A stretch of 64,000 bases of DNA, taken from positions 744,001 through 808,000 of the forward strand of contig NZ_BSTT01000002.1 in the NCBI RefSeq assembly GCF_030269685.1, in the 5' to 3' direction. Within the stretch, counting starts at the first letter, position 1. Every line of letters starts with the position of its first letter. This DNA is from Actinomycetospora sp. NBRC 106378 (lineage in GTDB: Bacteria > Actinomycetota > Actinomycetes > Mycobacteriales > Pseudonocardiaceae). Below are positions 2,183 through 56,886 of the stretch, piece after piece. The notes below the pieces were generated by a model. That model worked only from the letters and a program-made list of their open reading frames with translations. It was not told the DNA's origin and ran no database searches. The translations under genes and the position numbers were made by a program.

Positions 2183-2212
2183 GGCGGGTTCCGGGGTGGC
2201 GGGCTCCGGGGT
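2183..2212. repeat. 15-bp tandem duplication
   Basis: GGCGGGTTCCGGGGT at 2183-2197 is followed directly by GGCGGGCTCCGGGGT at 2198-2212, one base different. It abuts the R1 repeat that starts at 2211. Confidence 0.8.
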
Positions 2213-2265
2213 GGCAGGAAAGCGTCGTTGCTGTCATCGGGCGGCAGGGACGCCGCATCCTCGAT
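2211..2265 (+). repeat. Dispersed repeat R1, copy a (intergenic)
   Basis: Begins GTGGCAGGAAAGCGTCGTTG and continues with CTGTCATCGGGCGGCAGG, then ACGCCGCATCCTCGAT. The second half can fold as GCGGC-AGGGAC-GCCGC. The same element recurs seven more times in the window. This copy sits about 130 bp upstream of the alkB start. Confidence 0.85.
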
Positions 2266-31557: not shown

Positions 31558-31612
31558 GTGGCAGGAAAGCGTCGTTGCTGTCATCCAGCGGGAGGAACGC
31601 CGCATCGTCGAC
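31558..31612 (+). repeat. Dispersed repeat R1, copy b (intergenic)
   Basis: GTGGCAGGAAAGCGTCGTTG followed by CTGTCATCCAGCGGGAGG and AACGCCGCATCGTCGAC. It starts 17 bp after the paaX stop, where it could act as a transcript end. A CCCGG-rich run (GGCCC units) follows. Confidence 0.85.
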
Positions 31613-33021: not shown

Positions 33022-33076
33022 GTGGCAGGAACGCGTCGTTGCTGTCGCCGGGCGGGAGGAACGCCACTCCCTCGAC
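33022..33076 (+). repeat. Dispersed repeat R1, copy c (intergenic)
   Basis: GTGGCAGGAACGCGTCGTTG then CTGTCGCCGGGCGGGAGG and AACGCCACTCCCTCGAC. It begins nine bases after the LLM stop and 69 bases before cobL. Confidence 0.85.
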
Positions 33077-33144: not shown

Positions 33145-34413
33145 GTGACCGTCACCGTCGTCGGCATCGGCGCCGACGGGTGGCCCGGACTCGCCCCGCC
33201 CGCACGCACGGCCTGTGAGAAGGCGGCCGTCGTCCTCGGGGCGCCGCGCCAGCTCGACCTGCTGCCCGCGGCCGTGACCGCCCGCCGCGAGGAGTGGCCG
33301 GCCCCGATGATGCCGTCGCTGCCGAGCCTGCTCGACCGGCTGGGCGGCGAGGAGCTCGTCGTCCTGGCCAGCGGCGACCCGATGTTCTTCGGGATCGGCA
33401 CCAGCGTGCTGCGGCTGCGCCCGGACGCCACGGTGGTGCCGCACCCGTCGTCGGTCGCGCTCGCCTGCGCGCGCCTGGGGTGGGCCGAGCAGGACGCGGT
33501 GGTGGTCTCCGCGGTCGGGCGACCGCTCGAGGCGGTCCGGGCGGCGCTCGCGCCGCGTCGCCGGCTGCTCGTGCTCGCGGACTCCGGCGCCCTGCCGGGC
33601 CGCCTCGCCGCGCTGCTCGTCGGCGCCGGTTACGGAGAGGCACGGCTCTGCGTGCTCGGTTCCCTCGGGGCCGAGCACGAGTCGCGGGTCGACGGTGTCG
33701 CCGCGAGCTGGAGCGCCCCCGACGGCGACCCGCTCGCCGTCGTCGCCGTCGACTGCCCCGCCCTTCCCGACGACGGGTGGCTCGGTCGGGCCCCCGGCCT
33801 CCCCGACGACGCGTACACCCACGACGGCCAGCTCACCAAGACCGAGATGCGGGCGCTCTCGGTGGCCGCCCTGCGCCCGCTGCCCGGTCAGCTGCTCTGG
33901 GACGTCGGCGGCGGGGCGGGCTCGATCGGCATCGAGTGGTGCCGGGCCGAGCCGACGGCGCGGGCGATCGCGGTCGAGTCCCGCGAGGACCGTGCCGCAC
34001 GCATCGTCGAGAACGCGGCGGCCCTGGGCGCGCCCGCGGTGCGGGTCGTGCCGGGCCACGCGCCCGAGGTGCTGTCCGGGCTGGAGACGCCGGACGCCGT
34101 CTTCGTCGGGGGCGGCGTGTCCGTGCCCGGCATGCTCGAGGCCTGCCGCCGGGCACTGCGCCCCGGCGGACGGCTCGTGGCGAACGCGGTGACGCTGGAG
34201 GGCGAGGTGGCCCTCGCGGCGGCGCGGGCCGAGTACGGCGGCGAGGTGCGGCGGATCGCGGTGTCCCGGGGCCGCCCGGTCGGCCGCTACCTGGGTTGGA
34301 AGGCCCTCGCGCCCGTGACGCAGTGGGTGCTGCACGTCGGGACCACCGACGCCGGTCCGGCCACGGCCGGCGACGTCCCACCGCCGACCCCGCCTCCCTG
34401 GAGACTCTCGTGA
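33145..34413 (+). CDS. cobL: Precorrin-6Y C5,15-methyltransferase (decarboxylating)
   Basis: This 422-residue protein is a CbiE-CbiT fusion that methylates C5 and C15 of the corrin ring and removes the C12 acetate carboxyl. The N-terminal CbiE half has VTVVGIGADGWPGL and VVLASGDPMFFGIG. The C-terminal CbiT half has LTKTEMRALSVAALRP, the SAM motif LWDVGGGAGSIGIEWCR near residue 252, and DAVFVGGGVSVPGMLE. It heads cobL-cobM-cobK, with GTGA overlap to cobM, in the aerobic cobalamin route. Confidence 0.95.
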   Translation: MTVTVVGIGADGWPGLAPPARTACEKAAVVLGAPRQLDLLPAAVTARREEWPAPMMPSLPSLLDRLGGEELVVLASGDPMFFGIGTSVLRLRPDATVVPHPSSVALACARLGWAEQDAVVVSAVGRPLEAVRAALAPRRRLLVLADSGALPGRLAALLVGAGYGEARLCVLGSLGAEHESRVDGVAASWSAPDGDPLAVVAVDCPALPDDGWLGRAPGLPDDAYTHDGQLTKTEMRALSVAALRPLPGQLLWDVGGGAGSIGIEWCRAEPTARAIAVESREDRAARIVENAAALGAPAVRVVPGHAPEVLSGLETPDAVFVGGGVSVPGMLEACRRALRPGGRLVANAVTLEGEVALAAARAEYGGEVRRIAVSRGRPVGRYLGWKALAPVTQWVLHVGTTDAGPATAGDVPPPTPPPWRLS

Positions 34414-35153: not shown

Positions 35154-35935
35154 GCGAGCCCGTCCTTCCGAGCGAACGGCACTCTCGCAGCATCTATGTG
35201 CGCGAAAGTGCCGCTCGTTCAGGACGGCGGGTCCTCGTCCTCGGCGGCACCGCCGAGGCCCGGGCACTGGCCGACACCCTGACCGCCCGGGGACACCACG
35301 TCACCACCTCCCTGGCCGGACGCACCCGCGACCCGCGCCTGCCGGCCGGGGAGATCCGAACCGGCGGGTTCGGCGGCGCCGAGGGTCTCGCGGCCGCCCT
35401 GCACCACGTCGAGCTGCTCGTCGACGCGACCCACCCCTTCGCCGCGCGCATGACCGACCACGCCGCGCAGGCCGCCGCGGCCACCGGCACGCCGTGGGTG
35501 GTGCTGCGCCGGCCCGGCTGGGTCGAGCAGCCCGGCGACCGCTGGGTCCGCGTCCCGACGACGGGTGCGGCGGCCTCGGCGCTCGGGGACGCGGCCCGCG
35601 TGTTCCTCGCGATCGGGCGCCAGGGCGTGCACCACTTCGGGCACCTCGACACCGTCCGCCTCGTCCGCGCGATCGAACCGCCCGAGGTGCTCCCGCCGCA
35701 CGCACACCTGATCCTGGCGCGCGGCCCGTTCGACCCGGACGACGAGCGCGCGCTGCTCGCGGCGCACCGGATCGACGCGATCGTCGCGAAGGACTCCGGC
35801 GGCGCCACCGAGGCGAAGCTGGTCGCGGCACGGGAGGCGGGCGTCCTCGTCGTGCTGGTGGACCGACCCGCGCTGCCTGCGGGAGCGACCGTCGTCGCCG
35901 ATGCCGATCGCGCGGCCGAGTGGGTGGAGCGATGA
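35150..35935 (+). CDS. cobK: Precorrin-6A reductase with a repeat-encoded N-terminal extension
   Basis: This 261-residue NADPH-dependent enzyme reduces precorrin-6A in the aerobic route. The typical start is RRVLVLGGTAEARALADTL at about residue 27, followed by VELLVDATHPFAARMTDHAA, ARVFLAIGRQGV and VAKDSGGATEAKL. The first 26 codons are almost entirely an R2 palindromic repeat (35162-35225), read as VLPSERHSRSIYVRES. The only start consistent with GTGA coupling to cobM is before this repeat, so the enzyme should carry the extra N-terminal peptide unless an internal start is used. The stop overlaps the downstream regulator. Confidence 0.93.
   Translation: MSEPVLPSERHSRSIYVRESAARSGRRVLVLGGTAEARALADTLTARGHHVTTSLAGRTRDPRLPAGEIRTGGFGGAEGLAAALHHVELLVDATHPFAARMTDHAAQAAAATGTPWVVLRRPGWVEQPGDRWVRVPTTGAAASALGDAARVFLAIGRQGVHHFGHLDTVRLVRAIEPPEVLPPHAHLILARGPFDPDDERALLAAHRIDAIVAKDSGGATEAKLVAAREAGVLVVLVDRPALPAGATVVADADRAAEWVER
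35162..35225. repeat. Palindromic repeat R2, copy b (5' end of cobK)
   Basis: A long inverted repeat bounded by GTCCT and AGGAC, with arms GAGCGAACGGCACT and AGTGCCGCTCGTTC and an inner pair CTCGCAGCAT and ATGTGCGCGA. It occupies codons 5-25 of cobK. Confidence 0.85.
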
Positions 35936-37797
35936 CGGGACGGGATCCGGTGCGCCGGGCGTCCGGAGTGCTCCCATGCACCGTGCTCGTGGACGCCCTG
36001 CGGCTGCTCGCCGACGACGGCCCCGCCGCGGACCTCGAGCGGGCCGCGGCGGAGCTCGCCGCCACCGACCCGGCAGCGGCCGCCCTCGTGCTGCGGGTGC
36101 GCTCGACGATCGAGGCGGGCCGGCGGCGGGAGGCCGAGCTCGCGGCGCTCGTCGACACCGCGCGGGACCTCGCCGGGGAGTCCGACCCGGGCCTCGTCCT
36201 CGATGCCATCGTGCGCCGGGCCCGGGCCCTGCTCGGCACCGACGTCGCCTACCTGACCCTGTACGACGCCGAGCGCGGCGACACCTTCATGCGCGCGACG
36301 GCGGGGTCGGTGTCGGCGGCGTTCCAGGCGCTGCGCCTGCCCGTCGGGGCCGGCCTGGGCGGGCTCGTGGCGCAGTCGCGGCACGCGCACTGGACCACCC
36401 GCTACCCGGCCGACCCCCGGTACCGCCACACCGACGAGATCGACGCGGCGGTGGGGGAGGAGGGCATCGTCGCGATCTGCGGGACCCCGCTGCTGGTCGG
36501 GGAGGAGTTCGTCGGCGTGCTCTTCGCGGCCAACCGCTCCGCCCGGCCGTTCACCCCCGACGACGTCGCCCTGCTCGGGTCGCTCGCCGCCCTCGCGGCC
36601 GTGTCGCTCACCCAGACCCGGGCCGCCGCGGAGACGGCGACGGCCCTGGCCGGGCTCCGCGCGGCGCACGCCGACCTGGCGCGGGCCGCGGACGCCCACG
36701 ACCGGTTCGCCGCCCTGGTCCTCGGCGGCGGCGACGTCACCGATCTCGCGGCCGCCCTCGCGGACCTGCTGCACGGCTGGGTCCGGGTCGTCGACGACGC
36801 CGCCGCCCCGATCGCCGCCGCCGGTCCGGTGCCGGACGATCTCGACGCCGCCGCCTGTGTCCGGGCCGCCGCGGCCGACCCGGGTCGGCTCGTCGCCGCC
36901 GAGGGGGCGGAGGCCGTGACCGTCGTGGCCGACCACCAGCAGCTCGCCACCCTGATCGTCGCGCCGCCCGCGCCGGGCGGGACCTCGCGGGGGCCCCGGT
37001 CGCGGATCGTCGAGCGCGCGGCCACGGTGAGCGCACTGGTCCTGCTCTTCCGCGCGCAGGCGTCGGAGTCGGAGCAGCGCCATCGAGGGGAGGCGCTGCT
37101 CGAGCTGCTGGACGGGGAGACGCCCAGCGCGGCGCTGCGTGACCGGGTCCGCGCGCTCGGCGTCGAGATCCGCCGCCCGCACCGGGTGCTCGTCGCCCGC
37201 TGCGCCGAGCACCAACGGGCGCGGCTCGCCGTCGACGCCGCCCACGCGGCGGGACGGACCGGGCTCGTCGCCGAACGACCCGACGCCGTCGTCGTGCTCC
37301 TTCCCGACGACGGGAGTGCTCGGCTGGCCGAGGACCTCGCCCGTCCGGCGTCGGACGAGTCGACCGCGGTGACGGTCGGGGTGTCGGAGCCGGTGCTGCC
37401 CGCGGACGGCCTGGCCGGGGCGGCGGCGGACGCGCGGCGGGCCGCCGAGGCCCTCGTGGCGCTCGGGCGGGAGGGGCGCGCCGGGTCGGTGGCCGAGCTG
37501 GGCTTCGCGGCCCTCCTGCTCTCGCGCAGCCCGGACGTCGGCGGGTACGTGGAGAGCGTCCTCGGCCCGCTCCTGGAACACGACCGTCGGCGGGGCACCG
37601 ACCTCGTCGGCACCCTCGCGGCCTGGTTCGCCGCCGGGCGCTCGCCGACCCGCGCCGCGAGCGCCCTGCACGTGCACGTCAACACGGTCACGCAGCGCCT
37701 GGAGCGGGTGCGCGCCGTGCTGGGCGAGGACTGGCAGGAGCCCGAGCGCACCCTCGAGCTGCACCTCGCCCTGCGGCTGCGGGGCCTGGCGCGCTAG
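35932..37797 (+). CDS. GAF-containing PucR/CdaR-type transcriptional regulator
   Basis: This 621-residue regulator has a GAF domain at about residues 75-225 (VLDAIVRRARALLGTDVAYLTLYDAERGDTF, GIVAICGTPLLVGEEFVGVLFAANR), a central domain, and a C-terminal PucR HTH_30 segment (DLVGTLAAWFAAGRSPTRAASALHVHVNTVTQRLERVRAVLG) near residues 560-605. This architecture is common for regulators of catabolic operons sensing an effector through GAF. It is translationally coupled to cobK by an ATGA overlap, but a role in cobalamin control is uncertain. The divergence in theme suggests it may regulate the downstream LLM gene. Confidence 0.9.
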   Translation: MTGRDPVRRASGVLPCTVLVDALRLLADDGPAADLERAAAELAATDPAAAALVLRVRSTIEAGRRREAELAALVDTARDLAGESDPGLVLDAIVRRARALLGTDVAYLTLYDAERGDTFMRATAGSVSAAFQALRLPVGAGLGGLVAQSRHAHWTTRYPADPRYRHTDEIDAAVGEEGIVAICGTPLLVGEEFVGVLFAANRSARPFTPDDVALLGSLAALAAVSLTQTRAAAETATALAGLRAAHADLARAADAHDRFAALVLGGGDVTDLAAALADLLHGWVRVVDDAAAPIAAAGPVPDDLDAAACVRAAAADPGRLVAAEGAEAVTVVADHQQLATLIVAPPAPGGTSRGPRSRIVERAATVSALVLLFRAQASESEQRHRGEALLELLDGETPSAALRDRVRALGVEIRRPHRVLVARCAEHQRARLAVDAAHAAGRTGLVAERPDAVVVLLPDDGSARLAEDLARPASDESTAVTVGVSEPVLPADGLAGAAADARRAAEALVALGREGRAGSVAELGFAALLLSRSPDVGGYVESVLGPLLEHDRRRGTDLVGTLAAWFAAGRSPTRAASALHVHVNTVTQRLERVRAVLGEDWQEPERTLELHLALRLRGLAR

Positions 37798-38971: not shown

Positions 38972-39030
38972 CCGAACGAGCGGCACGTTCGCGCATACAG
39001 ATGCTGCGACCGTGCCGCTCGCTCGTTCCG
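38972..39030. repeat. Palindromic repeat R2, copy c (intergenic)
   Basis: CCGAACGAGCGGCAC and GTGCCGCTCGCTCGTTCCGG pair, with a centre TTCGCGCAT-ACAG-ATGCTGCGA that pairs again. It lies ten bases after the LLM stop, and the CCCGACGACGGG 12-mer follows at 39037-39048. Confidence 0.85.
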
Positions 39031-44396: not shown

Positions 44397-44960
44397 TCAG
44401 GCCCGGAGGCCGGCCAGCGCCACGTACGCCGCCACCGCCGCGTCGACCAGGTCACCGCGGACGTCCGGGTCCTCGTCGATCCGCTCGGCGAAGCGCCGGA
44501 CGATCCCGGTGATCGCCTCGGACACGAGGAGCGGTGCCATGACCGGCGCCGCCCGGCCCTCGTCCGCCAGGCGGGCCAGGAACCGGGCGTTGCGCCGGTG
44601 CACGCGGTCGAGCAGCTCGGTCTGCACCGAGGAGTACGCCGGGTCGGTGCGGGCGAGCTGGGCGAGGACCTCGAGGACCCGGCGGTGGCGCACCGTGAGG
44701 TCGAGGTAGTCGGTGATCGCGCGGCGGGCGATGGTCGTCGGGTCGGAGGTGTCGCGGACCTCCTGGGCGGCGAGCACGTCGTCGCGGACCCGGGCGACCA
44801 GCGCGGCCACCACGTCGGCCTTGCCGGCCGGGAAGTGCGCGTAGACCGTCGGGCGGGTGACCCCGGCGGCCTCGGCCAGCTCGCCGACCGACGCCGCGTC
44901 CACGCCCCGACGCACGAGCACGCCCTCGGCGCCCGCGAGGATCGCCTCCCGGGTGCTCAC
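44397..44960 (-). CDS. TetR family regulator of the acyl-CoA carboxylase operon
   Basis: This 187-residue protein has the HTH VDAASVGELAEAAGVTRPTVYAHFPAGKADVVAALV near residues 19-54 and a helical ligand domain (RRAITDYLDLTVRHRRVLEVLAQLA). GTG at 44960 overlaps the carboxylase stop as GTGA. It is last in the ligase-carboxylase-TetR operon and likely senses an acyl-CoA intermediate. The operator was not identified. Confidence 0.9.
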   Translation of the reverse strand: MSTREAILAGAEGVLVRRGVDAASVGELAEAAGVTRPTVYAHFPAGKADVVAALVARVRDDVLAAQEVRDTSDPTTIARRAITDYLDLTVRHRRVLEVLAQLARTDPAYSSVQTELLDRVHRRNARFLARLADEGRAAPVMAPLLVSEAITGIVRRFAERIDEDPDVRGDLVDAAVAAYVALAGLRA

Positions 44961-47900
44961 CGGGTGTCCACGATCGCCCGCCGGGGCGGCAGGGGCCCGT
45001 CGGCCGCGGCCAGGGCGGCGAGGACGACCGCGGCCGTGTCGGCCGGGTCGATCACGTCGTCGATCTCGACCACCTCGGCCGCCGAGAGGGCCTTGCCCTG
45101 CTCGTAGAGCGCGGCGACCAGCTCGTCGTAGCGGGCCTGGCGTTCGGCGGGCCCGAGCGCCGCCAGCTCCTTCGCGTAGCCGAGCCGGACCGCGCCCTCC
45201 AGGCCCATCCCGCCGAACTCGCCGCTCGGCCACGCGACGGTCGCGACCGGCACCCGCATCGATCCGCCCGCCATGGCCATCGCGCCCAGCCCGTAGGCCT
45301 TGCGGAGCACCACGCACACCACCGGCACCCGCAGGTTCGCCCCGGCCACGAACATCCGGGAGAAGCGGCGCACCGTCGCGGTGGCCTCGGCGTCGGGACC
45401 GACCATGAAGCCCGGGGTGTCGCACAGCGAGACCACCGGCAGCCCACGGGCGTCGCAGAGCTGCAGGAACCGTGCCGCCTTCTCCGCGGCCTCGGCGTCG
45501 ATCGCGCCGCCGAGCCGCCGGGGGTCGTTGGCCATCAGCCCGACGGGCCGGCCGTCGAGCCGGGCGAACGCGGTCACGATCCCGACCCCGTACTCCGGCC
45601 GCAGCTCCAGGACCGACCCCTCGTCGGCCAGCCCCTGCACGGCCGCGCGGACGTCGTAGACCCGGAGCCGGTTCTCGGGGACGACGTGGCGCAGGAGCCG
45701 GGCGTCGGGCCGCGCACCGGGCACGACGCGGTCGAGGGCGAGGTAGCGCCGGGCCACCGCGATCGCTGCCGCCTCGTCCGGGACCAGCACGTCCACGACC
45801 CCGTTCGGCACCTGGACCGAGGTCGGCCCGACGTCGTGGGGGTCGACCTCGCCGAGCCCGCCGCCGGCGATCATCGCCGGGCCGCCCATCCCGAGGTTCG
45901 CGCCCTCGACGGCGACGAGCAGGTCGGCGCACCCGGCGAGCGCGGCGTTGCCGGCGAAGCAGTAGCCGGCGACCACGGCCACCGTCGGGACCCGCCCGGA
46001 GAGGCGCGCGAACAGGGCGAACGTCGGCACGTCGAGCTGGGCGACCGCGATCGTGTCGGTCTCGCCGGGGCGTCCGCCGCCGCCCTCGGCGAAGAGCACG
46101 ACGGGCAGGTCGTGGTCGAGCGCGAGGTTCAGGGCGCGGTCGGTCTTCGCGTGCGAGAGGACGCCCTGGGTGCCCGCGAGCACCGTGTAGTCGTAGGCGA
46201 GCACCACGACGCGGCGCCCGTCGACCGCGCCGATCCCGGTGACGATGCCGTCGGCCGGGGTGCGTTCGCGCAGGTCCGCCAGGGTGCGCCGCGCCCGCTG
46301 CGCGGCGACGGCGAACGCGCCGTACTCGACGAACGTGCCCTCGTCGCACAGGTCGGCCACGTTCTCCCGCGCGGTGCGCCGGCCCGCGTCCCGACGGCGG
46401 GTCACGGCGGCCGGGCGGGCCTCGTCGCGGGTGAGGTGTCGCCGGTCGAGGACCTCGGCGAGGTCGGGACGGACGTGGTCGGGGTCGATCTCGCGGTCGG
46501 CCTGCTCGGCCGTGTCGTGGGCGCCGGGCGCGAGGACCGCCAGCACGTCGCCCTCGGAGACGACCTCCCCGACGGCGACGACGACCTCGACGACCGTCCC
46601 GGCGCCCGGGACCCCGACGACGTGCTCCATCTTCATCGCCTCGAGCACGACGACGGCGGCACCCGCGGCGACGGTGTCCCCGGGACCCGCCTCGACGGCG
46701 ACGACCGTGCCGGCGGTCGTCGCCCGGAGCTCCGTCCCGTCCTCCTCTCCTTCCTGTGTGAGGGGAACCCTCGTGCCATCAGAGCGCTCGGATCCTCCCC
46801 TCACGATCTCGGGGAGCAGCCGCTCGACGAGGCCGGTGTCGGGGGTGGGCACCTCCGGGCGGGCCAGCAGCGCCCGCAGCACCGGGACCGTCGTCGGGAC
46901 CCCGTCGACGTCGAACGCGGCGAGGGCGCGGTCGAGGTGGCCGAGGGCGCGGCCGAGGTCGGTGTCGTGCACGACGACCTTCGCGAGCAGCGAGTCGTAC
47001 CGCGGGTCGACGGTCAGGCCGACCCGTCCGTGCGTGTCGACCCGAACCCCCCGGCCCGACGGCGGGGTGAAGCGGGTGAGCGTGCCCGCGGCGGCCCGGA
47101 CCGACCCGTCCGCGTCGATCGTCTCCGCGCACACCCGGGCCTGCACGGCCACGCCGCGCGGAACCGTCGGCAGGGTGAGGTCGGCGAGGCCGGCCCCGGC
47201 GGCGATCCGGAGCCCGGCGCCGACCAGGTCGATCCCGAGGACCTCCTCGGTGACCGTGTGCTCGACCTGCAGGCGCGGGTTGACCTCGAGGAACGCGATC
47301 TCGGCGCCGGCGACGAGGAACTCCACGGTCGCGAGTCCCCGGAGCGCGGTGGAGGCGCCGAGGGCGTGCGCGTGCTCGTGGAGCCGGGCCCGGACGTCGT
47401 CGGGGAGGTCCGGGGCCGGGGCGATCTCGACCATCTTCTGGTGCCGTCGCTGCAGGCTGCAGTCGCGGTCGGCGAGCACGGCCACGTCGTGCCCGTCGCC
47501 GAGCAGCTGCACCTCGACGTGGCGCGCGCCCTCGAGGTAGCGCTCGACGAACACGCGGTCGTCGCCGAACGCGGCCCGCGCCTCGGCCGCGGCGGCCCGG
47601 CGCGCCTCGTCGAGTTCCGTCCGGTCCCGGACCACCCGCATCCCGCGACCCCCGCCGCCCGCGACGGCCTTCACGACGACCGGCGTAATGGTGCCGTCGT
47701 CGTCGAGCACCGGCACCCCGAGCTCGACGGCACGGTCCCGGGCCCGGACCTTGTCGCCGAACAGCTCCAGCGTGGCGGGGGAGGGGCCGACGGTCGTGAT
47801 GCCGGCGTCCTCGCACGCCCGCGCCAGCGCCGGGTTCTCGGACAGGAACCCGTACCCGGGGTGCACGGCGTCGGCCCCGGACTCCTTCGCCGCGGCGACG

Positions 47901-48106
47901 ACGGCGTCGACGTCGAGGTAGGCGCCGGGTCCGGTGCCGGGGAGCGCCACCTCCCGTGGCAGGAAAGCGTCGTTGCTGTCACCGGACGCCAGGGAATCCG
48001 CGTCGTCGGCGGCCCGCACGAGCACCGCCTCCAGCCCGAGGGCCGCGACCGCATCGGCGATCCGGACGGCGATCTCGCCGCGGTTGGCGATCAGGACACG
48101 GTGCAC
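44957..48106 (-). CDS. Single-chain acyl-CoA carboxylase (BC-BCCP-CT fusion)
   Basis: This 1049-residue fused biotin enzyme carboxylates an acyl-CoA. The biotin carboxylase domain (residues 1-435) has MHRVLIANRGEIAVRI, HPGYGFLSENPALA, VKAVAGGGGRGMRV and EVNPRLQVEHTVTEE. The biotinyl domain near residues 455-520 carries the biotin lysine in VLEAMKMEHVVG. The carboxyltransferase follows, with VLAYDYTVLAGTQGVLSHAK, VVAGYCFAGNAALAG and LCDTPGFMVGPD. The layout equals the single-chain long-chain acyl-CoA carboxylases known from actinobacteria. Residues 33-51 (SLASGDSNDAFLP) come from an in-frame R1 repeat. A 9-bp inverted repeat (46758-46804) codes the BC-BCCP linker. It lies between an acyl-CoA ligase gene (1-bp gap) and tetR. 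Confidence 0.94.
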   Translation of the reverse strand: MHRVLIANRGEIAVRIADAVAALGLEAVLVRAADDADSLASGDSNDAFLPREVALPGTGPGAYLDVDAVVAAAKESGADAVHPGYGFLSENPALARACEDAGITTVGPSPATLELFGDKVRARDRAVELGVPVLDDDGTITPVVVKAVAGGGGRGMRVVRDRTELDEARRAAAAEARAAFGDDRVFVERYLEGARHVEVQLLGDGHDVAVLADRDCSLQRRHQKMVEIAPAPDLPDDVRARLHEHAHALGASTALRGLATVEFLVAGAEIAFLEVNPRLQVEHTVTEEVLGIDLVGAGLRIAAGAGLADLTLPTVPRGVAVQARVCAETIDADGSVRAAAGTLTRFTPPSGRGVRVDTHGRVGLTVDPRYDSLLAKVVVHDTDLGRALGHLDRALAAFDVDGVPTTVPVLRALLARPEVPTPDTGLVERLLPEIVRGGSERSDGTRVPLTQEGEEDGTELRATTAGTVVAVEAGPGDTVAAGAAVVVLEAMKMEHVVGVPGAGTVVEVVVAVGEVVSEGDVLAVLAPGAHDTAEQADREIDPDHVRPDLAEVLDRRHLTRDEARPAAVTRRRDAGRRTARENVADLCDEGTFVEYGAFAVAAQRARRTLADLRERTPADGIVTGIGAVDGRRVVVLAYDYTVLAGTQGVLSHAKTDRALNLALDHDLPVVLFAEGGGGRPGETDTIAVAQLDVPTFALFARLSGRVPTVAVVAGYCFAGNAALAGCADLLVAVEGANLGMGGPAMIAGGGLGEVDPHDVGPTSVQVPNGVVDVLVPDEAAAIAVARRYLALDRVVPGARPDARLLRHVVPENRLRVYDVRAAVQGLADEGSVLELRPEYGVGIVTAFARLDGRPVGLMANDPRRLGGAIDAEAAEKAARFLQLCDARGLPVVSLCDTPGFMVGPDAEATATVRRFSRMFVAGANLRVPVVCVVLRKAYGLGAMAMAGGSMRVPVATVAWPSGEFGGMGLEGAVRLGYAKELAALGPAERQARYDELVAALYEQGKALSAAEVVEIDDVIDPADTAAVVLAALAAADGPLPPRRAIVDTR
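46758..46804. repeat. Inverted repeat in the BC-BCCP linker of the carboxylase gene
   Basis: GTGAGGGGA and TCCCCTCAC are perfect 9-bp arms, 29 bases apart. They code for the linker around SERSDGTRVPLTQEGEED. The linker composition (Ser, Arg, Glu, Thr) differs from the Ala/Val-rich surroundings, so a small insertion is possible. Confidence 0.5.
47956..48010 (+). repeat. Dispersed repeat R1, copy d (inside the carboxylase gene)
   Basis: GTGGCAGGAAAGCGTCGTTG, then CTGTCACCGGACGCCAGG and GAATCCGCGTCGTCGGC. Read by the gene on the other strand it codes DSLASGDSNDAFLPREV, replacing the usual HVRLADEA-type segment of biotin carboxylases. Confidence 0.85.
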
Positions 48107-48107
48107 G

Positions 48108-49685
48108 TCAGCTGTTCCTCGTCACGCGGATGCCGGCGGCCTCGCGGTCCCAGGTGGCCGGGCCGACCCCGGCGTCGCGCAGGAGGTTCTTCTGGACCTT
48201 GTGGGTCGGGGTCTTCGGCAGCGCGTCCGCCGTCTCCACGTAGCGCGGCACCATGAAGTAGGGCAGCCGGTCGACCAGGAAGGTCGTCAGCTCGGCCGGG
48301 TCGAGCTCGGCGTCGGGCTGGAGCACGACGACGACCTTGATCTCGTCCTCGGTGAGCGCCGACGGGACGGCGACCACCGCGCTCTCGTACACCGCCGGGT
48401 GCTCGTTGACCGTGCGCTCGACCTCGAAGCTGGAGATGTTCTCCCCGCGGCGGCGCAGCGCGTCCTTCATGCGGTCGCAGAAGAAGAAGCGGCCGGCGTC
48501 GTCGGTGCGGAAGGCGTCGCCGGTGTGCAGCCAGCCGTCGCGCACGACGCGGGCGGTCTCCTCGGGCCGGCCGTGGTAGCCGGCCATCACGGTGTGCGGC
48601 ACCTGCGGACGCACGAGCAGCTCGCCGATCTCGCCGGGCCCGACGTCGCGGCCGTCGACGTCGACCAGCCGCAGGTCGTAGCCCTCGCGCGGGAAGCCGG
48701 CCTCGCCGCCGACCACCGTCTCCGGTGGCCCGTCGAGCACCGCGCCGATCTCGCTCATCCCATAGACGGCGGCGAGGTCGACGCCGAAGCGCCGCCGGAA
48801 GGACGCGACGTCGCTCGCGAGGGGAGCCATGATCGCGAGCTCGAGCGGGTTGTCGGCGTCGTCGGGAGCGGGCGCGCGCTGGGCGAGCAGCTCGGCCATC
48901 GCACCCAGCAGCACCGTGATGGTGATGCCGTGCTCGCGCACCGTCGGCCAGAACCCGCCGACCGAGAACCCCGGCTCGAGCACGCACGGGATGGCGTGGA
49001 TCAGGGCCTGGTAGACGCCGTACCACTGGCCCGCGAGGTGAAACACCGGCAACGTGACCAGCGCCCGGTCGCCCGCGCGCGGTCGTTCCTGGTGCTCGCG
49101 GCTGGCGTAGGTGTAGGCGTGCGCGTGGGGGACCAGGACGCCCTTGGAGAGTCCGGTCGTCCCCGACGTGTACATGATGGCGTGCAGGTCCTCGGGGCGG
49201 CGACGGACCGGGTTCGCCGGGGCGTCCACCTCGTCCAGCCCGATCACGCGGAACCGCCCCGGCGGCAGGACGTGCCCGTCGACCGGGCCGCGGACCACGA
49301 CCGTCCGCAGCGCCGGGACCTCGTCCGCGATCCGCGCGAGCCGGTCGAGGTAGTGGGCCTCGACGACGAGGGTCACGGCGCCGCAGTCGCGGAGCACGTG
49401 GGCGAGGAAGGCGCCCTTGTAGGCGGTGTTGACCGGTACCTCGACCCCGCCGGTCAGCACCACGCCGAGCCAGACGTGCACCGCGTCGAGGGAGTTGTCC
49501 AGCAGCAGCGCGACGGGCCGGTCGACTCCTGCCCCGAGGCCGCCGCCGACGCGCAGGGACCGCTCGAACGCCTGCTCCAGCGTCCACGTCCCGGTCCGGT
49601 CGGTCTGCGTGACGGCGTCCCCGACGGCGAGGGCGCGTTCCACCGCGGCCAGCAGGGTCCGGTCCTCGAGTGCGGGCAGGCCCAC
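48108..49685 (-). CDS. Acyl-CoA ligase (AMP-dependent synthetase, CaiC-like)
   Basis: This 525-residue adenylate-forming ligase activates a carboxylic acid to its CoA ester. The AMP-binding motif is AIMYTSGTTGLSKGVLVPH near residue 165. YGMSEIGAVLDG, GWLHTGDAFRTDDAGRFFFCDRMKDALRRRGENISSFEVE and the catalytic lysine region LPKTPTHKVQKNLL near residue 508 follow. The pattern resembles CaiC-type crotonobetaine/carnitine CoA ligases and fatty-acid-like ligases. It is first in the operon, with the acyl-CoA carboxylase one base downstream, so the pair probably makes and then carboxylates the same acyl-CoA. ATG at 49685 is the first start with homology. Confidence 0.93.
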   Translation of the reverse strand: MGLPALEDRTLLAAVERALAVGDAVTQTDRTGTWTLEQAFERSLRVGGGLGAGVDRPVALLLDNSLDAVHVWLGVVLTGGVEVPVNTAYKGAFLAHVLRDCGAVTLVVEAHYLDRLARIADEVPALRTVVVRGPVDGHVLPPGRFRVIGLDEVDAPANPVRRRPEDLHAIMYTSGTTGLSKGVLVPHAHAYTYASREHQERPRAGDRALVTLPVFHLAGQWYGVYQALIHAIPCVLEPGFSVGGFWPTVREHGITITVLLGAMAELLAQRAPAPDDADNPLELAIMAPLASDVASFRRRFGVDLAAVYGMSEIGAVLDGPPETVVGGEAGFPREGYDLRLVDVDGRDVGPGEIGELLVRPQVPHTVMAGYHGRPEETARVVRDGWLHTGDAFRTDDAGRFFFCDRMKDALRRRGENISSFEVERTVNEHPAVYESAVVAVPSALTEDEIKVVVVLQPDAELDPAELTTFLVDRLPYFMVPRYVETADALPKTPTHKVQKNLLRDAGVGPATWDREAAGIRVTRNS

Positions 49686-49788
49686 GGTTCGTCCCCTCTC
49701 GCAGCGTCGCTCCGAGGACTTTACAGAGCTGCCAAGCCTCGAGAGGCACGACGACGCGCCCTGCCCGGGGAGCCGCGCCCGTCGGAGG

Positions 49789-51327
49789 TCATGCCGGGCC
49801 GGAGGTCCACCGCCGGGGACTGAAGACGCGGTCGGCCACCCAGCGCGTCTGCGACGACCCGATGATCAGCAGGGTCCGCATGTCGATCTCGGACGGCTCC
49901 AGCGCACCGAGCTCGACGACGCGCACCGACTCCTCGGGCCCGTCGACGTCGCGCCCGACGATCACCGGGGTCGCGTCGTCGCGGTACTTGAGCAGCAGCT
50001 CCTTGGCCGCCTCGACCTGCCACGTCCGGGAGCGGGACGCCGGGTTGTAGAGGGCGATCACCATGTCGGCGTCGGCCACCGCGGCGAGCCGGCGCTCGAC
50101 GACCTCCCACGACTTCAGGCGGTCCGACAGCGAGATCGTCGCGTAGTCGTGGCCCAACGGCGCCCCGATGCGGGCGGCCACGGCATGGGCGGCGGTCACG
50201 CCGGGGAGCACCCGCACCTCGACGTCGGGGTAGTCCTCCGCCGCGACCTCGACGACCGCCGAGGCCATCGCGAAGACCCCGGGGTCGCCCGAGGAGACCA
50301 CCGCGACCCGTCGTCCGGAACGGGCCAGATCCAGGGCGAAGGCGGCGCGCTCGGACTCGACCTTGTTGTCCGACCCGTGGACGCGCTGACGCGGGTTCAC
50401 CGGCACCCGGGCCACGTAGGTGGTGTAGCCGACGACGTCGTCCGCGGCCGTGAGCGCGCTGAACGCCTCCGGGGTGAGCCGGTCGCGGCTGCCCGGGCCG
50501 AGTCCGACGACGGTGACGAGGCCGGTCGACGATGTGGCGTCACTGTCACTGGATGCCAGCAACGACGCTTTTCTGTCACGCGGGGCGCCGTCCGCCCGCG
50601 CCTGCTCCGTCGTCGCCACGTGCACCCGCGAGGGCACGATCCCGACGCTGAAGTACGGCACCGACGCCGGGTCGACGTCCTCGAGCCGGCCCTGGCGCTC
50701 CTCGGGCTGGCTGGCGCGCTCGACGTACCGGGCCTCGTCGGCACGGCCCGCGACGCGCAGCGCCGTCCGGACCCCCGTGAAGGTGCGGCCCAGCTTCATC
50801 ACGGCGGCGGCATCGGTGTCGGCCAGGCGCCGGGCGAGCTCGTCGGGCGGGAGCGTGCCGGGCAGCACGGTGAGGACCTCGTCGCGCTCCACCAGCGGCG
50901 TCCCGAGCGTCGCGGCCGCGGCGGACACGCTGGTCACCCCGGGCACCACCTCCGCGGCGTACCGGTGCGCCAGCCGCTTGTGCAGGTGCATGTAGGAGCC
51001 GTAGAAGAACGGGTCGCCCTCGGAGAGCACCACCACGTCGCGGCCGGCGTCGAGGTGGGCGGCCAGCCGGGCGGCCGCCTCGGTGTAGAAGGCGTCGATG
51101 CGGCCCTGGTAGTCGTCGGTGTCCTCGGTCGTGACCGGGTAGGTCAGCGCCTCCTCGATCTGCGTGCCGAGGTATCCCGCCGCGATCCGCCGGGCGTTGG
51201 AGCGCCCGTGCCGTGCGCAGTGGTAGGCGACGACGTCGGCGGCGCGGATCAGGTCGACGGCCTTCACCGTCATCAGCCCGGGGTCGCCCGGACCGACGCC
51301 CACGCCGTAGAGCCGGCCCGTCGTCAT
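49789..51327 (-). CDS. cobIJ: Precorrin-2 C20 / precorrin-3B C17 methyltransferase fusion
   Basis: This 512-residue bifunctional enzyme has a CobI half at residues 1-245 (RLYGVGVGPGDPGLMTVKAVDLI, VVVLSEGDPFFYGSYMHLHKRL, VVPGVTSVSAAAA) and a CobJ half from about residue 270 (VTVVGLGPGSRDRLTPEAFSAL, VAVVSSGDPGVFAMASAV, VLPGVTAAHAVAARIGAPLGHD, ALYNPASRSR). Both are SAM-dependent tetrapyrrole methylases, as in other actinobacteria. The linker at residues 250-267 (DRKASLLASSDSDATSS) is an R1 repeat. It is last in cobG-cobH-cobIJ, with ATGA overlap to cobH. Confidence 0.95.
   Translation of the reverse strand: MTTGRLYGVGVGPGDPGLMTVKAVDLIRAADVVAYHCARHGRSNARRIAAGYLGTQIEEALTYPVTTEDTDDYQGRIDAFYTEAAARLAAHLDAGRDVVVLSEGDPFFYGSYMHLHKRLAHRYAAEVVPGVTSVSAAAATLGTPLVERDEVLTVLPGTLPPDELARRLADTDAAAVMKLGRTFTGVRTALRVAGRADEARYVERASQPEERQGRLEDVDPASVPYFSVGIVPSRVHVATTEQARADGAPRDRKASLLASSDSDATSSTGLVTVVGLGPGSRDRLTPEAFSALTAADDVVGYTTYVARVPVNPRQRVHGSDNKVESERAAFALDLARSGRRVAVVSSGDPGVFAMASAVVEVAAEDYPDVEVRVLPGVTAAHAVAARIGAPLGHDYATISLSDRLKSWEVVERRLAAVADADMVIALYNPASRSRTWQVEAAKELLLKYRDDATPVIVGRDVDGPEESVRVVELGALEPSEIDMRTLLIIGSSQTRWVADRVFSPRRWTSGPA
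50526..50580 (-). repeat. Dispersed repeat R1, copy e (inside cobIJ)
   Basis: On the complement it reads GTGACAGAAAAGCGTCGTTG, then CTGGCATCCAGTGACAGTG and ACGCCACATCGTCGAC. It has the same orientation as cobIJ and supplies the linker between its two domains. Confidence 0.85.
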
Positions 51328-52013
51328 GCCTTCGCCCCGAGAGCCAGTGCGTTCACGGCCCCGACCGTCATCGCCGATCCACCCCGGCGGCCGTGCACCA
51401 CGACGTGCTCGAGCTCCGAGGGATGTCCGGCCAGCGCCGCCTTCGACTCCATCGCGCCCACGAAGCCGACGGGCAGGCCCAGGACGACGGCGGGTCTCGG
51501 TGCGCCGGCCTCGATCAGCTCCAGCAGGCGGAACAGTGCCGTCGGGGCGTTGCCGATGGCGACGACGGCGCCCTCCAGCAGCGGCATCCACAGGTCCAGC
51601 GCGGCGGCGGACCGGGTCGTCCCGAGCGCCGCGGCCTTCGCCGGGACGTCCGGGTCGTTCAGGGTGCACACCACGTCGTTGCCCGCCGGCAGGAACCGCC
51701 GCGTGATCCCGGAGGCGACCATCATCGCGTCGCACAGCACCGGCGCCCCCGCCCGCAGCGCCTCGTGGGCGGCGGCGACGGCACCGGGCGTGATCGCGGT
51801 GTCGGCCCCGAGGTCGGTCATCCCGCAGGAGTGGATCATCCGTACGACCAGATCGTGGGCGTCCGCCGGCAGGTGCTCCAGCGACGCCTCGGACCGGATG
51901 ATCGCGAAGGAGCGCCGGTAGATCTCGTCGCCGTCGACCACGTGGGCAGGGATCGCCCGCGAGTCCGGCTCATGAATGACGCCCGCCGTCGGAGCCACGT
52001 CGCCCGAGATCAT
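51324..52013 (-). CDS. cobH: Precorrin-8X methylmutase
   Basis: This 229-residue enzyme moves the C11 methyl to C12, forming hydrogenobyrinate. Family marks include EIYRRSFAIIRSEASLEHLPAD, the catalytic histidine in VVRMIHSCGMTDL near residue 60, GAPVLCDAMMVASGITR and AVVLGLPVGFVGAMESKAAL. ATG at 52013 overlaps the cobG stop and its own stop overlaps cobIJ, in a tight operon. Confidence 0.95.
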   Translation of the reverse strand: MISGDVAPTAGVIHEPDSRAIPAHVVDGDEIYRRSFAIIRSEASLEHLPADAHDLVVRMIHSCGMTDLGADTAITPGAVAAAHEALRAGAPVLCDAMMVASGITRRFLPAGNDVVCTLNDPDVPAKAAALGTTRSAAALDLWMPLLEGAVVAIGNAPTALFRLLELIEAGAPRPAVVLGLPVGFVGAMESKAALAGHPSELEHVVVHGRRGGSAMTVGAVNALALGAKA

Positions 52014-53182
52014 CCGTTCACCTTCCCCGAGCGCACGATCGTCCGGTACGTGCCGCTCGTCTCCGCTTCCACCACGGCGACCCTGCCACCCGGGGTCCCG
52101 CACGCCCGCGAGCAGCCCACCCAGTGCTGCCGCACCTGCCCGCCGACGTGCCCGGACGCCACGGCGGCCGCCAGGTCACCCCGTACGTCGGTCAGCGACT
52201 TCCGGCACCGCGGCGCCCCCACGCACGCCGAGATCCCACGCCAGCGCGACGACGGATCGGTCTCCACCAGCCCACGGAGCCGCTGCGCGGCGTCCGCCGG
52301 TGCGTCGCGCAGCACGAGCGTGCGCCAGGGTGTCGCGCGCAGCGTCGCGCCCCGGTCCAGCAGCTCCAGCAGTGCCATGACCGTCGGCAGGTCGACCTCC
52401 CCGAGCCGGGGGAGCACCTCCAGCGCGGTGCCGTCCGTGCCCAGGCTCGTGGGGTCCGCCGGTCCGGGCTCCAGGGTCCCGACGCCGGGTGTGGTCACCT
52501 CGGCGAGCTCGGCCCCGACCGCGGCCCGGGCCGCGTCGTCGAGCTCGCGCACCCGCCAGGCGGACCCGCGGTGCGTCGTGAACGCGTCGACGGCGGCGAG
52601 GGCGAGGACGGCCGGGTCGTCGTGCCGCAGTCCGGTGTCGACGCCGTCGAGCAGCAGGGCAGCCCCGTCGTCGTCGGGAAGGACGACCGTGATGTCGCCG
52701 CCCTGCCCGCTGACGTCCCCCTCGGTGGCAGGAAAGCGTCGTTGCCGGCGTCCAGTGGCAGGAGAGCCACTCCGTCGGTCCTCGATGGCCACCAGCAGCC
52801 GCCCGGGCACGTCCACCCGGCCCCGCAGCCCCGTCGCCACCGCCCCGGCCACCGGGTCGACGGCCGTCGACCGGGGGGAGGCGATGATGCTGCAGGGCAC
52901 GTCGCGGCCGCGGGCGTCGACGAGGGCGTCGGGGCGGTCGTCACGGAGCGCATCGGCGAGGTCGTCGGCGGTGGTACCGGCGAGCCCGCGCACCTGCCAC
53001 GATCCCCGGGAGGTCAGTTCGATCGGCGACCCGCCGGCCGCGGCCGCGCCCGCCAGCAGGCGGAGCTCGGTGGCGGTGGTGGCCCCGCCGACCGGGCGGA
53101 ACCGGGCCAGTGCGCCGTCGGCGGCGTCGTGCCGGCGCCAGGCGCCGGGGCAGGCGTCGGGCCGGGATCGGGTGCGGGGCAT
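52010..53182 (-). CDS. cobG: Precorrin-3B synthase (aerobic ring-contraction monooxygenase)
   Basis: This 390-residue Fe4S4 protein of the nitrite/sulfite-reductase fold makes the gamma-lactone precorrin-3B with O2, which marks the aerobic pathway. Visible features are ADGALARFRPVGGATTATELRLLA (N-terminal half), VTTPGVGTL, and the cluster cysteines in ACVGAPRCRKSL and VGCSRACGTPGG near the C-terminus. ATG at 53182 is preferred; an in-frame ATG at 53191 lies upstream. Residues 134-152 (GSPATGRRQRRFPATEG) are an R1 repeat. It is divergent from cobN, with only about 50 bp between starts. Confidence 0.93.
   Translation of the reverse strand: MPRTRSRPDACPGAWRRHDAADGALARFRPVGGATTATELRLLAGAAAAGGSPIELTSRGSWQVRGLAGTTADDLADALRDDRPDALVDARGRDVPCSIIASPRSTAVDPVAGAVATGLRGRVDVPGRLLVAIEDRRSGSPATGRRQRRFPATEGDVSGQGGDITVVLPDDDGAALLLDGVDTGLRHDDPAVLALAAVDAFTTHRGSAWRVRELDDAARAAVGAELAEVTTPGVGTLEPGPADPTSLGTDGTALEVLPRLGEVDLPTVMALLELLDRGATLRATPWRTLVLRDAPADAAQRLRGLVETDPSSRWRGISACVGAPRCRKSLTDVRGDLAAAVASGHVGGQVRQHWVGCSRACGTPGGRVAVVEAETSGTYRTIVRSGKVNG
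52726..52780 (+). repeat. Dispersed repeat R1, copy f (inside cobG)
   Basis: GTGGCAGGAAAGCGTCGTTG then CCGGCGTCCAGTGGCAGG and AGAGCCACTCCGTCGGT. The second half folds as AGTGGC-AGGAGA-GCCACT. cobG reads it on the complement strand in a different frame from copies d and g. Confidence 0.85.
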
Positions 53183-53229
53183 CCGCCACACAGTACGGCC
53201 GATGACACACGGTGTGCGCAGATGATGAG

Positions 53230-56200
53230 ATGTTGCGCGTGCTCCTCCTCCTCTCGACGTCCGACACCGACCTCCGCTCGGCCCGGGCCGGCAGCGAGGG
53301 AGCGGCCGACCAGGCCCTGACGTGGCGCTGGGCCAACCCGTCCCGGCTCGACCCGGAGAGCGACCTGCCCGCCCTGCTCGACGGCGTCGACCTCGTCGTC
53401 GTGCGCCTGCTCGGGTCGCGGCAGTCGTGGGAGACCGGGCTCGACCTGCTGGCCGCCGGCCCGCGACCCGTCGTCGTGCTCGGCGGGGAGCAGGCGCCGG
53501 ACGCGCAGCTGATGGAGTCGTCGACGGTCCCCATCGGGGTCGCGACCCAGGCGCACCTCTACCTCGCCCAGGGCGGCCCGGACAACCTGCGCGAGCTCGC
53601 CGCGTTCCTCTCCGACACCGTGCTGCTCACCGGACACGGGTTCGCGCCGCCGGCGGAGCTGCCGACGTGGGGTCGTCTGCCGGGCTGGTCGGCCGACGAT
53701 GTGGCGGAACTGCCACTGGACGCCAGCAACGACGCTTTCCTGCCACAAGAGCCGAGGGTCGCCGTCGTCTACTACCGCGCGCACCACATGGCCGGGAACA
53801 CCGCGTTCGTCGACGCCCTGTGCCACGCCGTGGTCGAGGCCGGGGGAGTCCCCGAGCCGGTGTTCTGCTCCAGCCTCCGCAGCCCCGACGCCGAGCTGCT
53901 CGACGTGCTGAAGACCGCGGACGTGCTGGTCACGACGGTGCTCGCCGCCGGCGGCTCGAAGCCCGCGGCCGCGAGCGCGGGGGAGGACGACGAGTCGTGG
54001 GACACCGGCGCGCTCGCCGCCCTCGACGTCCCGATCCTGCAGGCGCTCTGCCTCACCCGCAGCCGCGACGAGTGGCTCTCCGACGACGACGGCGTGAGCC
54101 CGCTGGACGCCGCGAACCAGGTCGCGGTCCCGGAGTTCGACGGCCGGATCATCACCGTGCCGTTCTCGTTCAAGGAGACCGACGCCGACGGCCTGCCGGT
54201 CTACGTCGCCGACCCCGAGCGCGTCGCCCGCGTCGCCGGGCTCGCCGTGTCCCACGGCCGGCTGCGCCACCTCACGAACGCCGACAAGAAGGTCGCGCTC
54301 GTGCTGAGTGCCTACCCGACGAAGCACGCCCGGATCGGCAACGCGGTCGGCCTCGACACCCCGGCCTCGGTCGTCGCCCTGCTCCACGCCATGCGCGACG
54401 CCGGCTACCGGATCGGCGACGTGCCCGGGCTGGAGGAGCACGACGGCGACCTGCTCATCCGTGCCCTCATCGACGCCGGCGGCTACGACCAGGACTGGCT
54501 CACCGAGGAGCAGATGGCGGCCAACCCGGTCCGCATCGACGCCGACGAGTACACGGCCTGGTTCGAGACCCTGCCGCAGGACTTCCGCGACGGCGTCACC
54601 GAGCACTGGGGCGCCGCGCCGGGCTCGATGTTCCTCGACCAGGGGGCCATCGTGCTGGCGGCGATCGAGCGCGAGCACGTCGTCGTCATGATGCAGCCGC
54701 CGCGCGGGTTCGGGGAGAACCCGATCGCGATCTACCACGACCCCGACCTGCCGCCCTCGCACCACTACCTCGCCGCCTACCGCTGGCTGCAGACCGGCTT
54801 CGGGGCGGACGCGCTGATCCACGTCGGCAAGCACGGGAACCTGGAGTGGCTGCCGGGCAAGACGGCGGCGCTGTCGGCGTCCTGCGCGCCCGACCCGATC
54901 CTCGGGAACCTGCCGCTGGTCTACCCGTTCCTGGTCAACGACCCGGGCGAGGGCACGCAGGCCAAGCGCCGCGCCCACGCCACGCTGGTCGACCACCTCG
55001 TGCCGCCGATGGCGCGCGCCGAGTCCTACGGCGACCTCGCACGGCTGGAGCAGCTGCTCGACGAGTACGCGTCGATCCAGGCGATGGACCCCGGCAAGAT
55101 CGAGGCGATCCGCGGGCAGATCTGGCAGCTCATCCAGGCCGCGAAGCTGGACAGCGACCTGGGCGTGTCCGAGGCGCCGGACGGGGAGCGCTTCGACGAC
55201 TTCATCATGCATCTCGACGGCTGGCTCTGTGAGATCAAGGACGCGCAGATCCGCGACGGCCTCCACGTCCTCGGCAAGGCCCCGGCCGGTCAGGAGCGGG
55301 TCGACATGGTGCTCGCGGTGCTCCGGGCGCGGCAGATGTGGTCGGGCACGCAGGCGCTGCCGGGGCTGCGCGAGGCACTGGGTCTCGACGAGGCGGCCGG
55401 TGCGGCCTCCCGGATCGACGTCGACCGCGCGGAGGAACTCGCGCACTCGCTCGTCGTCGGGATGGAGAAGCGCGACTGGAACCCGGCCGACGCCGCCGAC
55501 GTGGCCACGGAGATCCTCGGGCGAGGACCCGACGAGGACGTGGTCAGGATCCTGCGCTTCGCGGCGACCGAGGTCGTCCCGCGCCTCGACCGCACCACCG
55601 AGGAGATCGACGGCGTGCTGCACGCCCTGGCCGGCGGACACGTGAAGGCCGGGCCGTCGGGGTCGCCGCTGCGCGGGCTGGTCAACGTGCTGCCGACCGG
55701 ACGGAACTTCTACTCGATCGACCCGCGCGCGGTCCCGTCGCGCCTGGCGTGGGAGACCGGCCAGATGCTGGCCGACTCGCTGCTCGAGCGCTACCGCGCC
55801 GACCACGACGGCGAGTGGCCCACCAGCGTGGGCCTGTCGCTGTGGGGCACGGCCGCGATGCGGACCAGCGGGGACGACGTCGCCGAGGCACTCGCGCTCA
55901 TGGGCGTCCGGCCCGTGTGGGACGAGGCGTCGCGCCGCGTCACGGGGCTGGAGGTGGTCGACGCCGACGAGCTCGGCCGGCCCCGCGTCGACGTCGTCCT
56001 GCGGATCTCGGGCTTCTTCCGGGACGCGTTCCCGCACGTGGTGGCGACGATGGACGACGCCGTGCAGCTCGTGGCGAACCTCGACGAGCCCGACGAGGAC
56101 AACTTCGTGGCCGCCCACGCGCGGGCGGACCTGTCGTCGGGAAGCACCTGGCAGGCCGCGACGACGCGCATCTTCGGCTCGCCGCCCGGGGCCTACGGTG

Positions 56201-56886
56201 CCGGTCTGCTGCAGGCGATGGACTCGCGGGACTGGCGCGGGGACGCCGACCTCGCCGCGATCTACACGACGTGGGGCGGGCACGCCTACGGCCGCGACCG
56301 GCACGGCGAGTCCGCCGTCGAGGAGATGAACGCGGCCTACCGGCGGATCGCGGTCGCGGCGAAGAACATCGACACCCGCGAGCACGACATCGCCGACTCC
56401 GACGACTACTACCAGTACCACGGCGGCATGATCGCGACGGTCCGCGCGCTGACCGGGGTCGCGCCGGCCGCCTACGTCGGGGACTCGACGCGGCCCGAGG
56501 CGGTGCGCACCCGGTCCCTGGTGGAGGAGACCGCCCGGGTGTTCCGGTCCCGCGTGGTGAACCCGCGCTGGATGGCCGCGATGCGCCGGCACGGCTACAA
56601 GGGCGCCTTCGAGATGGCGGCGACCGTGGACTACCTGTTCGGCTGGGACGCGACGGCGGGCACCGTGAGCGACTGGATGTACGGCTCGCTGACCGAGAAC
56701 TACGTCCTCGACCCGGAGAACCGGGAGTTCCTCCGCGAGGCGAACCCGTGGGCGCTGCACGGCATGGCCGAGCGGCTCCTCGAGGCCGTGGACCGGGGTC
56801 TCTGGGAGAACCCGGACCCGGCCATGGTCGAGTCGCTGCGCGAGGCGTTCCTCGAGGCGGAGGGGGATGCCGAGGGAGGTGCCTAG
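53230..56886 (+). CDS. cobN: Aerobic cobaltochelatase, large subunit CobN
   Basis: This 1218-residue magnesium-chelatase-H-type subunit inserts cobalt into hydrogenobyrinic acid a,c-diamide with the CobS and CobT subunits, which are not in this window. The family is clear from [123 protein letters not shown] and [18 protein letters not shown]. ATG at 53230 starts [15 protein letters not shown]. Residues 155-172 ([13 protein letters not shown]) come from an R1 repeat. It is divergent from cobG-cobH-cobIJ. No cobalamin riboswitch is visible upstream, and there is no room for one. Confidence 0.96.
   Translation: [1218 protein letters not shown]
53692..53746 (-). repeat. Dispersed repeat R1, copy g (inside cobN)
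   Basis: On the complement it reads GTGGCAGGAAAGCGTCGTTG, then CTGGCGTCCAGTGGCAG and TTCCGCCACATCGTCGGC. The second half folds as GTGGC-AGTTCC-GCCAC. cobN reads [13 protein letters not shown] through it, just before the conserved PRVAVVYYR. Confidence 0.85.

Follow-up and report, generated by a model that had tools for sequence, protein, structure and literature searches.

The 64,000-nucleotide stretch of an Actinomycetospora genome analysed here (G000:C2:744001-808000; hereafter the window) carries a short dispersed repeat, R1, of which seven copies (a-g) were found, four of them lying in frame inside enzyme genes (Table 1). The host genes of copies d-g were identified by domain and family matches as a biotin carboxylase/carboxyltransferase fusion, CobI plus CobJ (cobIJ) and CobN, while CobG is the sole NCBIfam match of its gene, at a score under the curated cut-off (107 vs 234.8 bits). 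Each of these copies codes for 18-19 residues, and together they are read in three codon phases and in both orientations with zero stops, so that the placement, frames and absence of stops described in an earlier sequence-only reading of this DNA are borne out. The same reading correctly put the cobN copy just before PRVAVVYYR and the cobIJ copy at the inter-domain linker, the latter lying between the family matches to CobI (residues 2-233) and CobJ (271-507), that is, in the linker of the two halves. Copy d lies inside the biotin-carboxylase N-terminal domain. Two more in-gene copies were found in 400 kb of contig C1 of the same genome, one N-terminal of the GGACT domain of a GGACT-domain protein and one in the variable N terminus of a 159-aa protein that matches no Pfam or NCBIfam family and for which comparison with other genomes was ambiguous. 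Four of the six in-gene copies in these 464 kb (contig sample plus window) are crowded into 5.8 kb (47956-53746) of one gene cluster.

Table 1. Copies of R1, and one copy of a second repeat (R3), in the window; mismatches are to the 53-bp R1 consensus.
Feature	Position	Strand	Gene (position, strand)	Residues	Mismatches	Encoded peptide	Remark
R1 copy d	47956..48008	+	carboxylase (44957-48106, -)	33-51	10/53	ADDADSLASGDSNDAFLPR	arm letter-perfect
R1 copy e	50527..50579	-	cobIJ (49789-51327, -)	250-267	7/53	RDRKASLLASSDSDATSS	
R1 copy f	52725..52777	+	cobG (52010-53191, -)	139-156	8/53	RRSGSPATGRRQRRFPAT	
R1 copy g	53694..53746	-	cobN (53212-56886, +)	161-179	6/53	ADDVAELPLDASNDAFLPQ	directly ahead of PRVAVVYYR
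R1 copy a	2211..2263	+			5/53		not scored as in-gene
R1 copy b	31558..31610	+			2/53		18 nt past end (31540) of PaaX-matching frame
R1 copy c	33022..33074	+			11/53		not scored as in-gene
R3 copy (GTGAGGGGAACCCT...TCCCCTCAC)	46748..46801	-	carboxylase (44957-48106, -)	436-453			in frame, same gene as copy d

In its 53-bp form, R1 consists of two hairpins in succession (GTGGCAG-loop-CTGTCAC, then GTGGC-loop-GCCAC) followed by a tail, ATCGTCG, and in its 57-bp form it is a palindrome made of the first hairpin and then its inverse. The seven copies of the window depart from the 53-bp consensus at 2-11 positions (6-10 in copies d-g), whereas in 20 letter-shuffled versions of the window the best match never had fewer than 19 mismatches (range 19-25). 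Genome-wide, the 21-nt arm occurs at 254 sites with at most three mismatches, against 0 for the reversed control. No Rfam family matched in the window at the gathering score. A further, degenerate copy (h) that had been proposed within paaX did not stand out from chance: the gene does carry a PaaX match (PF07848, at 30725-30865), and its best R1-like place (31170-31222) has 25/53 mismatches, which is the noise level, random stretches of equal length giving a mean of 25.7 and a 5% point of 24.

Alignment with congeners indicates that most of the in-gene sites hold additional sequence. Short, clean linkers exist in other members of the genus at cobN, cobIJ, cobG and the GGACT gene, which was the pattern foreseen for homologues without the repeat. 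The cobN linker is clean in 3/16 scoreable other genomes (flanks 8-11 nt apart) and filled in the remaining 13 (41-89 nt), the split cobN of genome G012 not being scored; relative to the solved CobN structure 7c6o, the CobN of the window has 15 extra residues at copy g. At cobG the site is clean in 10/14 congener loci and, beyond those 14, occupied as judged by length in G005 (164 nt) and G011 (65 nt), and the cobIJ linker is short in 8/13 congener loci. Four rows from Pseudonocardia are short at cobN and cobG and have cobIJ linkers of varied length. The spans of cobIJ, cobG and cobN differ from those of the window by multiples of three in all seven loci compared. No insert is present in the GGACT gene in 10/14 other genomes, the four with an insert being close relatives; alignments for this gene and the 159-aa gene each covered 15/18 genomes, G011, G014 and G015 being left out (missing, partial or split, or not included). 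Lenient BLAST counts of the inserts were informative for R1-type inserts, with those of A. endophytica at shuffle level and native sequence matching everywhere. Five places could be aligned outside the cob genes: two hold another repeat, T, and one, an intergenic site, is empty in A. termitidis, where A. soli has 72 extra bases with R1. At the place orthologous to copy c, A. endophytica has unrelated sequence of similar length. In AlphaFold2 models, the inserts of CobIJ and CobG fall in predicted loops of low confidence, with block means of the predicted local distance difference test (pLDDT) of 44, 46 and 56 over residues 241-270 of CobIJ and of 56 and 63 over residues 141-160 of CobG. As a side observation, the cobN of G015 (L122) shows an in-frame TAG in the search alignment.

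Different species of the genus hold different dialects and repeats at these same sites. R1 is present in 6/18 Actinomycetospora genomes, and a second family, R4, in exactly the 12 without R1, with no overlap (1-119 counts per genome, some places being counted on both strands because the R4 pattern is nearly palindromic); R4 fills the cobN site in several of its species. The T arm is found 80 times in A. termitidis but no more than three times in any other of the 18 genomes; it stands without a single mismatch at the cobIJ and GGACT sites of A. termitidis, and it also occurs at two places where A. soli has R1. The B arm, found six times in the 400-kb sample of A. soli, once in that of A. chiangmaiensis and in none of the other four samples, fills the cobIJ and GGACT sites in the first two species. 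In both of these the GGACT linker carries an in-frame composite palindrome of about 130 nt (L268 in A. soli, L253 in A. chiangmaiensis), which in A. soli contains both halves of the element. R3, whose copy in the carboxylase of the window separates the biotin carboxylase C-terminal domain from the biotinyl domain, also occupies the cobG site of A. chiangmaiensis and A. termitidis (L031, L033), and its 16-nt core has six exact occurrences in the A. chiangmaiensis sample and 0 in that of A. termitidis. The cobN tree groups four close species with A. termitidis in one clade (99/99). The GGACT insertion is restricted to this clade and is most simply explained by a single old insertion with later exchange of its content. 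Exchange is suggested because in G005 the first bases of an A. soli type insert, read by eye, are kept ahead of an R1 palindrome; independent insertion at a hot spot is a possible alternative. Hairpins of the window species are more alike within the genome (identity 0.89) than to their orthologues (0.70-0.78) in a comparison made without the cobG rows of A. termitidis and TBRC 11914.

The first hairpin appears to keep its pairing across these dialects, with moderate support. Covariation was computed for 16 of 21 gapless 27-mers of this hairpin, from four genes and six species; five were omitted as other families, forming 5 (cobG of A. termitidis), 8 (cobG of TBRC 11914), 4 (cobN of NBRC 106375), 9 (cobN of A. 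lutea) and 7 (cobN of A. callitridis) of the nine pairs. In the 16 sequences, 85% of pair cells are standard, both sides change in 5/9 pairs, and the covariation score is 0.281 vs 0.031-0.099 with slid partners. Seven to nine of the nine pairs are made by 15/16 rows, as against 2.9% of random 27-mers.

Taken together, we consider it probable (roughly 0.8) that one Actinomycetospora clade hosts R1 as a small, dispersed, non-autonomous hairpin element, which spreads mainly between genes, is filtered by selection within them and is exchanged in place. The 464 kb contain 19 R1 elements, 6 in genes and 13 not scored as in-gene, five having been scored as in-gene by a codon-usage rule and copy d, which the rule missed because it lies near the gene start, added as the sixth. 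Actinomycete genomes are mostly coding, and this distribution therefore looks like depletion of R1 in genes rather than targeting to them. R1 would thus spread chiefly between genes, presumably by transposition, and copies in genes would survive only where the frame is kept, no stop arises and the linker is flexible, so that the in-gene set would be what remains after selection. Occupied positions would persist with changing content, as the resident hairpin is replaced, through fresh insertion or gene conversion, by whichever dialect is active in the species. The earlier description of a mobile repeat filtered by selection holds in so far as R1 is dispersed, mobile-looking and, compared with congeners, present as frame-keeping linker inserts in cobN, cobG, cobIJ and one further gene; it extends only partly to the carboxylase, where some native residues were replaced. 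More tentatively, a dialect-specific trans-acting process, either gene conversion templated by the repeats or an uncharacterised type of transposase, may overwrite the hairpin at fixed, long-kept sites when a new dialect takes over a species, although we regard this as doubtful. If so, several unrelated enzymes would change the same linker peptide together, as with VSSAAML in the cobIJ and GGACT proteins of A. termitidis, for which the counterpart linker peptides in the window species are SNDAFLP or RKASLL.

The Y1/RAYT transposase family PF01797 was found in 0/18 genus genomes, with 5/14 control genomes positive, and in a family sample outside the genus only 3/279 genomes had an R1 site (a single imperfect one in each case), against 11 genomes with a site for the reversed control, in keeping with a repeat confined to the genus. 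An origin as an insertion sequence bounded by facing R1 copies 1.2-1.4 kb apart was rejected because the frames enclosed by the two pairs examined did not look transposase-like by eye, and long palindromes with 45-nt arms were also rejected as the parent element (five in 2.46 Mb, one of them an R1 palindrome).

Several observations weigh against this interpretation. The carboxylase site is at least partly a replacement rather than a clean insertion: four other genus rows could be aligned, three with a repeat-like insert, and because the fourth, A. endophytica, shows a net gain of a few residues only, R1 took the place of native residues there at least in part, with no clean gap. Three species with an empty cobN site are nested within the occupied ones, so losses or repeated gains are needed, and 2/5 of the places that could be aligned outside the cob genes are filled by unrelated sequence of comparable length. 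In A. termitidis the carboxylase holds B and not that species' own main dialect, T, and A. chiangmaiensis hairpins are 0.72 identical within the genome and 0.83 to their A. soli orthologues. Support for pairing is only moderate because the shuffle control separates less clearly and the sequences are related to one another, letter shuffles reaching the covariation score in 8/500 cases, the percentage paired in 23/500 and the number of pair types in 217/500. The in-gene call is made by a crude codon-usage rule. Finally, there was no direct observation of movement, and the single clean empty site, whose boundaries are uncertain, showed no evident target-site duplication.

Among the other explanations, the one that survives best, while still unlikely, is that the elements are functional sites under selection, in-gene copies included, for example terminators, RNA-processing hairpins or targets of a dialect-specific DNA-binding protein. 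Their surroundings would suit such a role: across 41 distinct arm copies, to which palindromes contribute both arms, a pyrimidine tract lies ahead of the arm (10 nt with on average 79% C/T vs 50% in the background), with C at -5 in 36/41, and a stop trinucleotide lies within 22 nt upstream in 23/41 vs 18% in the background. The pairing kept across dialects also agrees with selection, and species-specific dialects recall a co-evolving binding factor. However, R1 is missing from two-thirds of the congeners (12/18), and the in-gene sites are empty in many species; the binding factor itself is hypothetical.

That R1 is adapted to insertion into protein linkers, as a peptide-coding element open in several frames, was proposed in the sequence-only reading and is now very unlikely. 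The six in-gene copies, all in frame and mostly crowded together, would fit such an adaptation, as would a consensus that is open in five of six frames. Such openness is at background level, however, since of random 53-mers drawn from the genome 39% have six open frames and 41% have five, which makes 80% with five or six. The 13 of 19 elements not scored in genes and the excess of stops just upstream of the arm also argue against adaptation to coding sequence, and no peptide is kept, because the in-gene copies yield three different ones.

It is similarly hard to credit that each site received one old insertion that then diverged in the ordinary way, the dialects being drifted descendants without exchange. 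The confinement of the GGACT insertion to one five-species clade is what a single old insertion would leave, and related hairpins have most letters in common. Drift alone does not account for the A. termitidis cobIJ and GGACT hairpins, which match the 80-site T consensus letter for letter while their orthologues differ at at least 8/27 positions, nor for the unrelated R3, which occupies the cobG site of two species. A similarity due merely to chance might be suspected in a G+C-rich genome, since many weak repeat families are listed in the window, and it does hold for copy h; for copies a-g it has a negligible probability given the reversed control and the shuffles.

Other repeats were also noted. 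A frequent short repeat around CTTCCCGACGACGGGT occurs at 2268-2303, 33763-33798 and 37300-37335, with 10-21 exact 15-mers per 400 kb in 4/6 species samples and 0-1 in the remaining two. Sequences around CGAGCGAACGGCACTCTCGC make up a third family, present in both orientations (10374-10427, 35168-35221 and 38972-39025). In A. endophytica (L231-L250), long palindromes with GTGAGCANTAATTGACGCTA arms, a different repeat, lie near 39092 and 398196 of the joined sample. Listings of repeated words within loci were swamped by G+C-rich coding words.

With these results, palindromic inserts that keep the reading frame are extended to a free-living actinomycete, one for which many congeners have been sequenced. 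Within this one genus, the same enzymes come in a natural series, their matching codons being empty or filled by R1, B, T, R3 or R4. The series makes testable how hairpin repeats move or convert without a known transposase, and what share of the variation in protein linkers is due to DNA repeats. It is also a warning to annotators that the residues of such inserts are not conserved protein sequence.

Bacterial miniature inverted-repeat transposable elements (ERIC, RUP, NEMIS) are likewise small and non-autonomous and are sometimes fused in frame to genes (PMC10969869, PMC2229807), but R1 is shorter, showed no evident target-site duplication at the one clean empty site, whose boundaries are uncertain, and had no parent transposon among the two facing pairs inspected by eye. 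Repetitive extragenic palindromes (REPs) of the GTAG type (REPIN/RAYT) are short high-copy palindromes, single or in inverted pairs, mostly at gene 3' ends with some intragenic (PMC3733652); R1 copies, however, read without GTAG at the start or end of the hairpin, and PF01797 was not detected in the genus, as noted above. CGTC REPs, a class that includes RPE-4 and RPE-6, resemble R1 in having no known dedicated transposase, in forming inverted dimers and in their intragenic copies (PMC3733652). Their stems of 8-9 bp begin with AT, with loops of 4-5 nt and a CCA tail (PMC3733652), whereas R1 stems begin with GT and the loops of hairpin 1 span 9-13 nt; the CGTC motif is present in the unpaired tail of the 53-bp form, and the palindrome form is without that tail. 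The word Actinobacteria is absent from PMC3733652, and in search listings of the open-access literature we found no report of in-frame palindromic inserts for actinomycetes, Actinobacteria, Actinomycetospora or Streptomyces. R1 is nevertheless not the new kind of peptide-coding element that had been suggested, as both in-frame palindromic inserts and different repeats at one orthologous site have been published (PMC3767692, PMC3733652), the latter including different REPs at about the same site in recB of two Xanthomonas species among REPs inside genes (PMC3733652).

The comparison with Rickettsia palindromic elements (RPEs), also drawn earlier, is apt, since these are palindromic inserts within genes and in frame (PMC3767692), described in a review as unusually frequent in-frame inserts (PMC10969869). 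Together with the Wolbachia palindromic elements (WPE), they are palindromic dispersed repeats, some in frame in enzymes and with orthologue inserts at the same locus (PMC3767692, PMC2229807), and one insert-bearing guanylate kinase of Rickettsia is an active enzyme (PMC2229807). Orthologues may hold other RPE groups at or near the same locus, which has been attributed to hot spots or common origin (PMC3767692). R1 is set apart by length (53-57 bp vs about 100-150 bp) and by host (Actinomycetospora vs Rickettsiales), and in Actinomycetospora dialects are counted per genome and mutually exclusive families occupy the same codons. R1 works like an RPE but is not an RPE.

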